32,337 nucleotides of DNA from Clostridiales bacterium (GTDB lineage: Bacteria; Bacillota; Clostridia; Christensenellales; Borkfalkiaceae): positions 1-32,337 of the forward strand of contig SVIT01000011.1 of assembly GCA_015069365.1 (NCBI GenBank), in the 5' to 3' direction. The translations under genes were made by a program, and so were the position numbers. Below the pieces are notes generated by a model. The model was not told where the DNA came from. It saw only the letters and a program-made list of their open reading frames with translations, and did no database searches. This document shows, piece after piece, positions 4,597 to 9,224 of the stretch (positions are counted from its first letter, which is position 1; each line of letters opens with the position of its first letter).

Positions 4597-4616
4597 GCGT
4601 TGGGTTGAGAAGCGGA

Positions 4617-4677
4617 GGGTGAAAAAGCAAAAAAAATGTTTTTTCTTAAAAAAAATTTCATTTTTCCCAGTTTTTTT
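4617..4677 (+). terminator. Possible weak terminator after the ATPase
   Basis: GGG (4617-4619) plus an A tract can pair with TTTTTCCC (4661-4668), which runs into TTTTTTT at 4671-4677. The loop is long and A/T-rich, so this is only a plausible terminator. Most of the GC content is in three base pairs. Confidence 0.3.
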
Positions 4678-4688
4678 ACCCCAAACTC

Positions 4689-4717
4689 TTGACCGATTGA
4701 TTTAGATATGTTATAAT
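4689..4717 (+). promoter_or_regulatory. Promoter of the 740-residue repeat protein
   Basis: TTGACC (4689-4694) and TATAAT (4712-4717) are spaced by 17 nt, with TG placed as an extended -10 (TGTTATAAT). Transcription would start near 4724, about 205 nt before the start codon. Confidence 0.85.
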
Positions 4718-4723
4718 AATACT

Positions 4724-4928
4724 TGTAAAAGCAGGATTTTAGTTTTTTTGCGTAAAAAATAGGGTAATTCGGTACATGCTATCATGCTTTCCACATCTTG
4801 AGAAGAAAAAACGTATCGAAATGGACGAAAAAACACTTTAAAAAATTTTCGAGTCAAAAAAGCTTAAAATCACAATCCGAAGAAAATTAATTTCAGCCCT
4901 AAAGGCGGATAATAAAACGAGGTGTAAC
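4724..4928 (+). other. Long AT-rich 5' leader of the repeat protein
   Basis: About 205 nt of untranslated leader. I see no known riboswitch, tRNA-like element or terminator in it. Small features are a CATGC direct repeat near 4777-4790, a CGAAAA/TTTTCG pair spanning about 4829-4851, a six-codon ATG-to-TAA frame beginning ATGGACGAA near 4820 without a ribosome binding site, and GCC/GGC pairing near 4895-4907. The coding start is preceded by CGAGGTG. Confidence 0.4.
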
Positions 4929-7151
4929 ATGGCGAAACCTGAAAGAACTCAACCAGACAAATTTGACGCATTGTATCAATGGCTTTCGTATGAACTGCAA
5001 CAGGCGAAAGATACATTGATGACGGAAGTTCGTCTTTCTTCTGCACAGATCGGTGCCCTGTATCAGGAAATGAAGAATGACAGCGATGAAGCTTCGAAGG
5101 CTGTCTCGCAAGAAATCCGTTACAGCTACAAGCAGAATCAGACCATCTATGACGGTTTGGCAGCTATGCTTTCCCAAGAGGTCGGTGAAAGACTGAACTC
5201 GATGGATGAGAAGTTGGCTGCGTTGGAACAGCTTCAGGTTCTCCTTAACGAGCTTAACGAAATTAAATATAACTACATGCACTTGCAGGCAGTTTGCAGT
5301 GACATGGCTTCGGTCGTTTCGAACGAAGTTAACCCCAAGCTGGACGCCATCAGCAGTAAACAAGTTTTGCTCGATCAGATCGAATCTATTGTAGAAGAGA
5401 TTAATGCAAAGCTCGAGGGGTATCTTCCCACGGAAGAAGACTATAAAAAGCTCGCTGAAACGATCTCTGAAAAAACGGAAGAAAGCGTTTCTGAACACAG
5501 CCGCCAGGTTATCGAGGCTGTTTCTGGACTCGTTGTTCCCGAAAACGTTGATTACGACCGTATCGTAGAAGAGGTAGGCGACAAAGTTCTCGAGCTGTTG
5601 AACGAAATCAAAGGCGCTCAGCAGGATGAAAAGCTTGTTAGTTATTCCTCTACGGTTGATTATGACAGAATCATCTGCGGCGCAGCTGAAAAGGTAGTCG
5701 AATCTCTTCCTTACAATGAAAAGGTAGATTATAGCCGTATTGAAAAAGCAGCAGCGATCGATATGGACGCTTTGGCAGAAGCAGTTGCCGGCAAGATTGT
5801 AGTTCCTCAGGTTAACTACGAACGTCTTGCAGACCTTGTTGTTTCCAAGATCGCAGTTCCCGAGGTTGATTACGAACGTCTTGCTGACCTCGTTGTTTCC
5901 AAGATTGTTGTTCCCGAGGCACCTGCTGCTCCCGAAGTTGACTGCGAAGGCCTTGCTGATCTCGTTGTTGAAAAGATGGCTGCTGGTACGGAACAGACCT
6001 GCGAAGTTGTTCTTGATGACGCTGGTATTGCTGAGATCGCAGAAAAGGTATCCGAGAAGATCGTTACTGGTGTAGAGGCTATCGACTACGACAAAGTATG
6101 TCAGGCAGCGCAAGCAGCTCAGATTTTGCCTGATCCCGTTGATTACGATCGTATTGCTGAAATCGTTGAAGATAAATTGTCTGGTGAAGAACCTACATAC
6201 GATTTGGTTATCGACGAAGAAGGTATCAATGCAATCGCGAAAGGCGTATCCGAAGAACTTTGCCAGATGTACGTTCCTTGCGACGTTGAAGTTGTAGAAG
6301 AAGCTCCTGCTGAAGAGATTGTTGAGGAAACGGTTGAGGAGACAGTAGAAGAAACGCCTGTTGAGGAAGTTATTCAAGAATCTTTCGTAGAAGAAGTTAT
6401 TGAAGAAGCTCCCGTTGAGGAAGTTGTAGAGGAAGTTATTGAAGAAGCTCCCGTTGAAGAAGTTGCAGAGGAAGTCATTGAAGAGGCTCCCGTTGAAGAA
6501 GTTGTAGAGGAAGTTATTGAAGAAACTCCCGTTGAAGAAGTTGTAGAGCCTGTTGTTGAAGAAACGCCTGTTGAGGAAGAGCTTGCTGCAACGTCTGCAC
6601 ATGTATTCGAAGAAGTTGGCAACGAATTGGTTGACGCTGAAACGGGTCTTGTAATTCGCTTAAAGAGAAGCTTCACAGCGAAGATGAAACAGAGCGAAGA
6701 AAAGGTAAAGGGTTACTACAGCGACCTTAAGAACGAATTAACTTCTTATAAGAGAATCAACTCCAACGTAAGCTGGCACGGTGACAGATTCAACTTCGGT
6801 CGCGACACGGTTGCGAAGATCAATATCTGTGGTAAGACGTTGTGCTTCTATTTGGCACTTGATCCTAACGATGAGGAAACGTTCAAGACGACCGTATATC
6901 ACCAGAAAGACGTAGGTAATCAGAAAGCGTACGAAAATACGCCTTTTATGGTCAAGATTAAGAGTGACGCGGCCGCGAAGAAGGCTCTCCGTTTGGTTGG
7001 CTATCTTGCTGAAAAACTCGGCACGGAAAAAGAAGAAAATCCTGAAGTTGTAGACTATGTAGAAGAATTTGCGTATGAATCCACCAAGCAGCTCTTCGAC
7101 GAAGGCTTCATTAAAGCAACGAAGGAAAAGAAAGTAGAGTTCGATTTCTAA
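4929..7151 (+). CDS. Acidic repeat protein with conserved C-terminal domain, function unknown
   Basis: A 740-residue cytoplasmic-type protein (no signal peptide or membrane segment seen). Residues 1-200 are helical-looking and Gln/Glu/Lys-rich, plausibly coiled coil. From about 207 to 420 there are eight degenerate copies of a motif like VDYDRIAEIVEDKL, starting at residues 207, 243, 266, 295, 313, 337, 385 and 404. Residues 453-552 are an acidic Glu/Val/Pro tract containing four 13-residue copies of EVIEEAPVEEVVE (489-540). Residues 565-740 form a separate basic-to-mixed domain starting GLVIRLKRSFTAKM, with SWHGDRFNFGRD and CGKTLCFYLALDP. From memory, similar C-terminal domains occur in uncharacterised clostridial proteins; I know no function. 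It has its own promoter and terminator, so it is a single-gene unit. A scaffold or protein-binding role is only a guess. Confidence 0.85.
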   Translation: MAKPERTQPDKFDALYQWLSYELQQAKDTLMTEVRLSSAQIGALYQEMKNDSDEASKAVSQEIRYSYKQNQTIYDGLAAMLSQEVGERLNSMDEKLAALEQLQVLLNELNEIKYNYMHLQAVCSDMASVVSNEVNPKLDAISSKQVLLDQIESIVEEINAKLEGYLPTEEDYKKLAETISEKTEESVSEHSRQVIEAVSGLVVPENVDYDRIVEEVGDKVLELLNEIKGAQQDEKLVSYSSTVDYDRIICGAAEKVVESLPYNEKVDYSRIEKAAAIDMDALAEAVAGKIVVPQVNYERLADLVVSKIAVPEVDYERLADLVVSKIVVPEAPAAPEVDCEGLADLVVEKMAAGTEQTCEVVLDDAGIAEIAEKVSEKIVTGVEAIDYDKVCQAAQAAQILPDPVDYDRIAEIVEDKLSGEEPTYDLVIDEEGINAIAKGVSEELCQMYVPCDVEVVEEAPAEEIVEETVEETVEETPVEEVIQESFVEEVIEEAPVEEVVEEVIEEAPVEEVAEEVIEEAPVEEVVEEVIEETPVEEVVEPVVEETPVEEELAATSAHVFEEVGNELVDAETGLVIRLKRSFTAKMKQSEEKVKGYYSDLKNELTSYKRINSNVSWHGDRFNFGRDTVAKINICGKTLCFYLALDPNDEETFKTTVYHQKDVGNQKAYENTPFMVKIKSDAAAKKALRLVGYLAEKLGTEKEENPEVVDYVEEFAYESTKQLFDEGFIKATKEKKVEFDF
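5547..6190 (+). repeat. Eight degenerate VDYDRI-type peptide repeats
   Basis: Copies start at nucleotides 5547, 5655, 5724, 5811, 5865, 5937, 6081 and 6138. The consensus is V-[DN]-Y-[DE]-[RK]-[IL]-A-x-x-V-x-x-K-[IL], with spacing varying from 18 to 48 residues. The copies at 5811 and 5865 are the closest to each other (ERLADLVVSKI in both), suggesting recent duplication there. Confidence 0.75.
6393..6548 (+). repeat. 39-nt coding minisatellite, four copies
   Basis: Four tandem units at 6393-6431, 6432-6470, 6471-6509 and 6510-6548 encode EVIEEAPVEEVVE with minor changes (A for V in copy 2, T for A in copy 4). Related but diverged units flank them on both sides. Because the unit is a multiple of three, copy-number change would keep the frame. 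Confidence 0.85.
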
Positions 7152-7191
7152 TGATCGGCTCCCATACAAAAGAAACATACGAATAAAGAAA

Positions 7192-7230
7192 AGAGAGCTG
7201 ATAATTCCATATTTTCGGCTCTCTATTTTA
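7192..7230 (+). terminator. Intrinsic terminator after the repeat protein
   Basis: AGAGAGCTGA (7192-7201) pairs with TCGGCTCTCT (7215-7224) over 10 bp including one G-U pair, followed by ATTTTAT. It lies about 40 nt after the stop codon. Confidence 0.85.
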
Positions 7231-7265
7231 TAGGCGGAAAACCGCCGAGGAGAACGATTTAGACA

Positions 7266-9224
7266 GTGAAAATGAACAAACAGGACGGTTTGCGAGGGGA
7301 AAAGTCCGCGAAACGCAGTGAAAAAACGCCCCGCAAAAAGAGTTCCACTAAAGAAAAAAATCCGATGGGGACAGCGTTTGATCTAAAGACATCAATGGAA
7401 AGGGCGGAAAGAAAACCCCGCGCAACCAAAGGGCAGACCAGAAAGAATGAAGATGCTTCGTCTCGAACGGTTAAACAAAAAAAACAAACAGCACCGATAA
7501 AAGGAACAAAACAATCGACGCATAAAAAAGGAACCACACCTAAGGCGGATAAGATTAAGACGTCTGCAGGCAAGAAAAAAGCCGTAAGAATATTATTTTT
7601 GGGCGGTGTCGGTGAGATCGGTAAAAATATGACCGCGATCGAATACGGCAACGATATCATCGTAATTGACGCGGGCTTAACCTTTCCTAATGAGGATATG
7701 CCGGGGGTTGATTCGGTTGTGCCCGACGTGACGTATCTTGCCCAAAACAAGGATAAAATTCGTGGCATTTTGTTGACGCACGGACATGAAGATCATATCG
7801 GCGGCGTACCGTATTTAATGAAAGAACTCGACCCTGCTACCCCCATTTATGGGACAAAGCTTACGCTAATGCTCATGGACAACAAGTTGCAGGAACATCG
7901 TATTCAGAATACTGTCGAGCGCGTTGTCCAACCTGGCGATCGTGTAAAACTCGGCGCTTTTGAGGTCGAGTTTGTCAACGTAAATCATTCTATCTCAGGT
8001 GCGTGCGCTTTGGCGATTCGTACCCCTAACGGCTTGATCTATCACAGTGGAGACTTTAAAATCGACCTTACTCCCGTTGCAGGTGACGCGATTGATCTTA
8101 AGCGTATTGCCGAGCTGGGTCAAGAGGGCGTTTTGCTCTATTTAGCGGAATCTACGAATATCGAACGCCCAGGATATACCATGAGTGAAACGGTTGTTGG
8201 GACAACCCTCGACCATCTTTTTTCCGAGAATATGACCCGCAGAATGATCATTGCGACGTTTGCGTCCAACGTACACCGCTTGCAACAGATCATTGATTTG
8301 GCGGTAAAATATCGTCGTAAAGTGGCACTTTCGGGTAGAAGTATGTTCAAAGTGGTCGAAGCTGCAGTCAAAATCGGAGAATTGAAGATCCCCGAAGGTG
8401 TTTTAATCGATATTGAAAAGACTAAAAATCTGTTTGACGGAGAACTTTTGATTGTATCTACGGGCTCGCAAGGTGAGCCGATGAGCGCTTTGACTCGTAT
8501 GGCTTCGGGCGATTTTAACAAGGTTACAATTGGGGGAAATGATACGATTATTATTTCTGCTAACCCGATTCCTGGCAATGAGAAGATGATCTATCGTGTT
8601 ATCAACAACCTTTACAAGAAAGGCGCGAAGGTTGTCTACGAAAGCTTGGAAAAAATCCACGTTTCAGGGCATGCTTGTCAGGAAGAGCATAAGATCTTGC
8701 ATAATCTGTTAAAACCTCGTTTTTTCATTCCCGTACACGGCGAATACCGTCATTTGAAACGTCACGCGGAGCTTGCTGAATCATTGGGAATGAGCGGGCA
8801 AAATATCCTAATCACCGATATCGGGAACTGTGTGGAATTGACGGATAAGAGTATGAAATTCGGCGAAAACATACAGGCAGGTACGAGATTAATCGACGGA
8901 ACGGGGGTAGAGGACTACGGAACGAGCGAAGTCATGAAAGACAGATTAAAGATGTCTGCAGATGGGGTGTTTACCGTAGCGCTTGCCGTGACGGGCAACT
9001 ACGTGATCAATGAACCTGTTATCGAATCGCACGGTTGCGTGTTCGGCGACAACGATACCGAAACGGAATTGACGAGTGTCGTTCAACGCGCTGTTGAGGG
9101 TTACAATTACGAGAGTGGTGACAAGACTGATTTGGCGATAACCGTTCGTAAAGTATTAAAAAATTATTTTTACAAAAAGACAAAACAAGCGCCTTTGATT
9201 ATAGTATCTGTGCTTGAATTATAA
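7266..9224 (+). CDS. rnj: Ribonuclease J with basic N-terminal extension
   Basis: A 652-residue metallo-beta-lactamase/beta-CASP ribonuclease, with 5'-3' exonuclease and endonuclease roles in mRNA decay and rRNA maturation. The zinc motif HGHEDH is at 172-177. The catalytic core begins near residue 106 (VRILFLGGVGEIGKN) and includes FVNVNHSISGACA, HSGDFKID and the late HGEYRHLKRHAEL. About 104 residues of Lys/Arg/Thr-rich, low-complexity sequence precede the core, making the protein about 100 residues longer than typical RNase J; extensions of this kind may bind RNA. The start is GTG at 7266 (GAGGAG 12 nt upstream, and an in-frame stop directly before it) or ATG at 7272. No promoter is evident in the 35 nt between the preceding terminator and the start. 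Confidence 0.93.
   Translation: MKMNKQDGLRGEKSAKRSEKTPRKKSSTKEKNPMGTAFDLKTSMERAERKPRATKGQTRKNEDASSRTVKQKKQTAPIKGTKQSTHKKGTTPKADKIKTSAGKKKAVRILFLGGVGEIGKNMTAIEYGNDIIVIDAGLTFPNEDMPGVDSVVPDVTYLAQNKDKIRGILLTHGHEDHIGGVPYLMKELDPATPIYGTKLTLMLMDNKLQEHRIQNTVERVVQPGDRVKLGAFEVEFVNVNHSISGACALAIRTPNGLIYHSGDFKIDLTPVAGDAIDLKRIAELGQEGVLLYLAESTNIERPGYTMSETVVGTTLDHLFSENMTRRMIIATFASNVHRLQQIIDLAVKYRRKVALSGRSMFKVVEAAVKIGELKIPEGVLIDIEKTKNLFDGELLIVSTGSQGEPMSALTRMASGDFNKVTIGGNDTIIISANPIPGNEKMIYRVINNLYKKGAKVVYESLEKIHVSGHACQEEHKILHNLLKPRFFIPVHGEYRHLKRHAELAESLGMSGQNILITDIGNCVELTDKSMKFGENIQAGTRLIDGTGVEDYGTSEVMKDRLKMSADGVFTVALAVTGNYVINEPVIESHGCVFGDNDTETELTSVVQRAVEGYNYESGDKTDLAITVRKVLKNYFYKKTKQAPLIIVSVLEL

Follow-up and report, generated by a model that had tools for sequence, protein, structure and literature searches.

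What does a large, strongly acidic protein do whose gene lies directly ahead of the gene for RNase J? The gene was found on the plus strand of contig SVIT01000011.1 of a Clostridiales bacterium (assembly GCA_015069365.1), in the 32,337-nucleotide stretch that we analyzed as a whole and call the window. Tentatively, we prefer to read its 740-residue product as an elongated cytoplasmic coiled-coil scaffold with a head resembling nucleic acid-binding double-wing domains, co-transcribed and working with RNase J. There are hints that the protein may help to organize RNA turnover in uncultured gut bacteria.

The gene and the parts of its product ahead of the C-terminal domain are the following.
4929 to 7151, plus strand: coding sequence, 740 amino acids, net charge −100 (open reading frame call, charge computation).
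4953 to 5414, plus strand: long N-terminal helices, residues 9–162, a probable coiled coil with a conserved EIRYxYKQNQ (low-confidence full-length model, conserved alignment columns, orthologue sequences).
5547 to 6200, plus strand: eight VDYDRI-type repeats, residues 207–424, predicted as short helices (motif count, full-length model).
6270 to 6608, plus strand: Glu/Val/Pro acidic tract, about residues 448–560, with a 13-residue repeat (composition, self-match, model).

These parts, together with a separate C-terminal domain, had been described by the initial annotation from the sequence, and each was recovered here. The protein has an isoelectric point of 4.2. Its repeat motif, [VI][DN][YC][DESK][RKG][IVL], matches eight times (at residues 207, 243, 266, 295, 313, 337, 385 and 404), whereas 2000 shuffles of the protein averaged 0.007 matches and never gave more than one. 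Residues 450–560 contain 40% Glu and 25% Val; the period of the acidic tract is 13 residues (63% self-match at lag 13), and on the DNA level a 39-bp repeat spans 6387–6579 with 4.9 copies and 89% match. A full-length AlphaFold2 model built from 19 aligned rows had a mean predicted local distance difference test (pLDDT) score of 55 and a predicted template modeling score (pTM) of 0.31, and we hence used its outline alone, i.e., long helices at residues 9–162, short helices along the repeat region, an unstructured part at about 447–558 and a folded C-terminus at 560–733. In this outline the N-terminal helices probably form a coiled coil. By eye, and with no topology predictor applied, we found neither a signal peptide nor a membrane or hydrophobic segment in the translation and on these grounds regard a secreted or surface protein as unlikely. 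The scaffold-like role proposed at first was kept, now for a cytoplasmic protein, as it fits the anatomy. Weak Pfam, NCBIfam and PDB matches in the N-terminus and the acidic tract (Spore_III_AB, CCDC93, GerD, KHDC3 with E 8.5e-6, delta-prime) were discarded as coiled-coil or low-complexity noise.

The C-terminal domain had been left without a family.
6648 to 7148, plus strand: C-terminal domain with a divergent YjbR/DUF1801/DUF5655-like (double-wing) fold and a short C-terminal extension (AlphaFold2, foldseek, profiles).

Modeled from 40 aligned copies, the domain reached a pLDDT of 96.8 and a pTM of 0.89 in AlphaFold2, which bears out a separate, confidently predicted fold. A foldseek search of the PDB with this model ranked YjbR (2fki), DUF419 (2a1v) and two YdhG/DUF1801 structures (2oc6 and 9t2w, the latter a Listeria YdhG named 'frataxin') first to fourth among 420 matches, with E values of 0.03–0.06. 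Against viral models, a DUF5655 protein ranked first of 682 (E 1.4e-4); this family had been a presumptive lead ahead of the fold searches. The domain profile and the DUF5655 model PF18899 match the same places in genomes G216 and G115 (genomes are labeled G, loci L), and of 38 DUF5655 loci the profile matches four, with a best E of 8.5e-9 in that small set. With hhalign, the profile was bridged to a 10-row DUF5655 set, seeded with four proteins that it had already matched, at 95.9% and E 5e-9 over 106 columns.

Several results weigh against this assignment. Apart from the seeding just mentioned, a first profile comparison with a mixed 7-row DUF5655 set failed (0.3%), none of the 420 PDB fold matches had E ≤ 0.001, the fifth-ranked match was an unrelated decarboxylase, and in a PF18899 scan of 40 domain members just one reached the model, at E 0.082. 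The PF18899 model leaves the window protein uncalled and has no match in the own genome; PF04237 (MmcQ/YjbR) and PF08818 (YdhG/DUF1801) match neither the window protein nor the 40 members nor the own genome, and Pfam, NCBIfam and PDB sequence searches of the window's domain gave no meaningful match. To these double-wing or CyaY-like families the domain is alike by fold, the negative at sequence level covering Pfam models and no profile comparison; with DUF5655 it shares the profile bridge and the top viral fold match. The branch found here differs from DUF5655 in that it has an extra C-terminal extension, carries a basic charge and follows acidic arms. Fold and profile comparison place the domain as a divergent, remote homologue within the YjbR/DUF1801/DUF5655 superfamily. 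The earlier statement that no family is recognizable therefore stands for sequence searches and falls for fold and profiles, and the match to characterized families extends to remote homology and fold but not to function. A literature search for DUF5655 found no paper. For YjbR, one report (PMC7641849) describes a double-wing fold with probable DNA binding, similar to the C-terminus of MotA.

The initial annotation had further proposed a single-gene unit with a consensus promoter, a long leader and its own terminator. The features that bear on this are a promoter and the next gene downstream.
4689 to 4717, plus strand: sigma-A-type promoter, TTGACC-17-TATAAT, its −10 box preceded by TG (11/12 match, kept in relatives).
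7266 to 9224, plus strand: RNase J gene, 652 amino acids (family matches, gene order in relatives).

RNase J directly follows the 740-residue protein in 20/20 collected orthologue regions and in 44/44 named-genome loci, two sets of largely the same species; one of the twenty, G059, is of another genus, and RNase J is also the next gene in G290 and G332, again from other genera. Upstream, the neighbor varies between Ca-ATPase, YebC and others, yet the gene keeps its place beside RNase J. From the first intercistronic hairpin, H1, to the RNase J start, as located by a ribosome-site pattern, the median distance is 45 nt over 44 loci (at most 53 nt in 36 of them), and 36/45 loci lack any promoter-like site of at least 9/12 within 600 nt before RNase J, i.e., RNase J has no conserved promoter. 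Since RNase J follows with so little room for a promoter, the single-gene unit was not upheld. As judged from these sequences, the gene probably opens a two-gene unit, whose second gene, RNase J, is probably transcribed by read-through past H1. The consensus promoter was confirmed: a scan upstream of the gene found the 11/12 site, where 3.3 weaker or equal sites were expected by chance, and it is present in 16 of 21 orthologue regions, the window included. One of the five misses lies at a contig edge; in others the start is doubtful or the sequence ahead of it is too short. The long leader, by contrast, is not conserved, as in relatives the promoter precedes the assigned start by about 95–300 nt (by −34 in L040, a doubtful start).

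Between both genes, at 7173–7252 on the plus strand, lies a two-hairpin element that is a candidate cis-acting RNA.
7193 to 7223, plus strand: hairpin H1 (GAGAGCTGA...TTTCGGCTCTC), then a T-rich stretch; terminator- or attenuator-like (pattern and alignment in relatives).
7233 to 7246, plus strand: hairpin H2 (GGCGG-AAAA-CCGCC), just 5' of the RNase J ribosome-binding site (alignment of relatives).

The H1 pattern has exactly one match per genome in 42 of the 57 genomes of the genus, in each of them on the same contig as the domain match and close behind it; a reversed-pattern control gave 0. By eye, the three of 45 loci that fail the pattern (L093, L125 and L127) keep the hairpin with changed pairs, so that H1 is a conserved structure with strong, not absolute, conservation of its sequence. 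The invariance of its stem in the alignment is partly an artefact of the selecting pattern, which chose the rows: 38/45 loci passed selection, with L126, L128, L129 and L133 dropped and three without a match. Only 28 of these 38 entered the hairpin alignment, and because ten loci with unclear or missing H2 were left out, the following counts lean towards H2. Each of the five H2 pairs has at least one row in which both partners are changed, and 77% of cells are paired. Doubly changed cells numbered 30, compared with a mean of 12.6 in shuffles (0/500 shuffles), whereas the count of pairs showing such a double change did not exceed that in shuffles (309/500). An RNA model, R1, found one site each in 13 of 121 family genomes under strict filters, the genus sites lying beside the 740-residue protein's gene; the Rfam scan of 4600–7400 gave IS009 at E 0.81 and nothing else. 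The terminator of the initial annotation is a real and conserved hairpin, but as RNase J stands close behind and is probably reached by read-through, H1 is better seen as attenuator-like.

RNase J itself carries a feature that may connect it with its neighbor.
7266 to 7562, plus strand: basic, low-complexity N-terminal extension of RNase J with NPMGTAFD (tail comparison, 45 loci).

In genomes of the genus this tail is basic and about 70–230 residues long. GT[APST][MF] occurs in the tails of 39/45 loci and NPMGT in 22, with the mis-cut row L092 scored as a miss; in none of 300 rounds of shuffled tails, which ignore kinship, was the former found more than twice. From its sequence, the motif looks as a docking motif would look. 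Outside the genus, among seven tailed loci, only G332 has it, in the looser form GTPV. Counting as basic tails those of at least 48 residues with a net charge of at least +6, we found one in 23/23 loci with a gene of the 740-residue type before RNase J, as opposed to 7/27 loci without it. By genus, the figures are 4/4 with the gene (the window's genus, G059, G332 and G290) and 4/12 without it; the truncated G390 and G394 were dropped, and the upstream view was at most 1.5 kb, in several cases 0.6–1.1 kb. The tailed genera are those with the most similar RNase J proteins, and for this reason kinship may explain the coupling of tail and gene.

Where else the domain occurs, and with which charge, bears on what it might bind. 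The own genome (1.35 Mb, 74% complete) is one of 67/101 relatives with the domain. Within the genus it was found in 52/57 genomes, 51 with a close copy and G050 with distant copies only; the five genomes without it are 65–79% complete. A class-wide draw matched 7 of 291 genomes, the own included, and two of these matches are the DUF5655 proteins of G216 and G115. Of the 44 relatives from named genomes, 42 are Clostridia metagenome-assembled genomes, and those with a stated source came from deer, sheep, goat and chicken guts. As suggested at the outset, we looked for further domain proteins in the same genome: the 740-residue protein stands alone in its 74%-complete genome, and some relatives have up to four. 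All 45 copies measured in relatives are net positive (+1 to +18), and a strongly acidic stretch precedes the domain in 29/45, compared with 1/318 sampled stretches of other open reading frames at the same loci. The window's own copy, outside this set, fits less well, with +9 over the core (6654–7019) and only +2 with the tail.

YdhG of B. subtilis has reportedly been proposed as a frataxin-like iron chaperone, and YdhG structures hold ranks three and four in the fold search. An iron chaperone is nevertheless very improbable, as the domain copies are basic, not acidic, and, according to PMC7641849, not even YjbR and CyaY have their functional residues in common.

The basic charge would rather suit a nucleoid- or DNA-associated protein, with a double-wing head that binds DNA and an acidic arm that tunes the binding. 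In favor of this reading, the N-termini of the DUF5655 relatives L141 and L147 presumably resemble a NucS/DUF91 nuclease, as judged by eye. We consider it unlikely, since membrane-anchored copies of the domain fit DNA binding poorly and the neighboring genes here concern RNA and metabolism.

These other copies were seen in twenty further domain regions, of which ten proteins were family-scanned. In some proteins the domain forms the end behind MBG or Ig-like repeats (L055 and L059 according to Pfam, L061 and L063 as judged by eye). It comes after a MalK-like ABC ATPase in L056, and elsewhere it is fused to DUF2357 (L062 according to Pfam, L068 as judged by eye) or a DUF2357-similar N-terminus without family assignment (L053, and by eye L057). 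Genes beside L053, L057 and L062 match the PADLOC candidate PDC-M26A, and PDC-S18 matches inside the domain of L062 (E 3e-5). A part in an anti-phage or restriction-like system may hold for such DUF2357-joined paralogues beside PDC-M26A-like genes, one of them in G002. For the 740-residue protein we regard it as very improbable: its gene is not patchy, being present in 51/57 genus genomes, and adjoins RNase J and ordinary metabolic genes.

A serious alternative, likewise tentative, is that the protein is the same scaffold with a double-wing-like head but has no working link to RNase J, organizes another part of the cytoplasm or envelope, and owes its place to an inherited neighborhood. Several observations speak for this or against our preferred reading. 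The gene order downstream of RNase J is conserved as well, and a larger surrounding block keeps its order in the genus; the basic tail occurs without the gene in 4/12 family genera; in 9/45 loci a promoter-like site does precede RNase J. The domain is also found in proteins unrelated to RNase J, i.e., in membrane proteins (L055, L059), the ABC ATPase protein (L056) and the DUF2357 protein (L062). Moreover, RNase Y is encoded in the own genome and exceeds the cut-off in 37/57 genus genomes, which refutes the idea that RNase Y is missing and replaced by the 740-residue protein. Inherited neighborhood or kinship could explain the RNase J link because of the tails without the gene, the conserved downstream neighbors and the presence of RNase Y. 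On the other hand, the upstream neighbor changes while the gene stays beside RNase J, the hairpin occurs once per genome, and a promoter for RNase J alone would have little space.

We still tentatively favor a scaffold that works with RNase J and propose the following mechanism. One conserved near-consensus promoter would drive both genes through a partly terminating hairpin, and therefore more scaffold than RNase J would be made. The N-terminal helices would self-associate as a coiled coil, and the eight short helical repeats and the disordered acidic spacer would hold the small globular domain at a distance. This mostly basic double-wing domain most likely would contact nucleic acid; alternatively, its contact could be an acidic partner, possibly its own spacer. 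In this way the scaffold would gather RNA and RNase J, the latter perhaps via its basic tail, which implies a putative physical link between both proteins. A more detailed version appears doubtful to us, namely a scaffold dedicated to RNase J in Candidatus Scatosoma and near genera, in which an acidic coiled-coil arm bears a double-wing RNA-binding head docking the basic, motif-bearing tail of RNase J, and a conserved intercistronic attenuator, possibly controlled by RNase J or the scaffold, gives an excess over RNase J.

In Gram-positives, RNase Y has been described, with some dispute, as scaffolding RNase J (PMC5289998). Like the degradosome scaffolds RNase Y and the C-terminal half of RNase E, the 740-residue protein is predicted to combine a coiled-coil or disordered arm with an RNA-binding module. 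A difference is that neither a catalytic nor a KH part and, by eye, no membrane segment was recognized; RNase Y, moreover, is encoded here as well, and the partnership with RNase J is putative. If this partnership holds, the protein would represent a novel kind of degradosome organizer beside RNase Y, and the RNA element between both genes could set the protein ratio. What was a 'hypothetical protein' becomes a distant double-wing superfamily member that can be tested. Its basic module recurs, often following an acidic arm, in an order of uncultured gut Clostridia and is not covered by the Pfam copy used here.

Viral origin of the protein was rejected: a single-protein query, which reaches close relatives only, found none in viral contigs, and a PHROG scan of 40 members of the C-terminal domain gave two marginal matches. 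An antisense open frame of 567 amino acids (4899–6602, minus strand) overlaps the gene and is most likely a by-product of repetitive codon usage.

Among the further domain regions, an odd fusion places a ribosomal L15/L27A-like tail after the domain (in L052 and L065 the Pfam match exceeds the cut-off, in L064 it falls slightly short); L069 and L070 look alike by eye, and a family scan of L070 found nothing. Two genus genomes (L062 3925–11211 and L068 3794–10787, the latter judged by size and eye) share a four-gene row of an unassigned or PDC-M26A-like gene, DUF2357 with the domain, a small gene and a large gene; in L062 the small gene is signal-peptidase-like and the large one has an EAL domain. 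In L051 (2–7858) and L060 (6898–14843), domain-bearing membrane proteins adjoin giant MBG or BspA-type repeat frames, as if a surface protein were paired with a cytoplasmic-tail protein.
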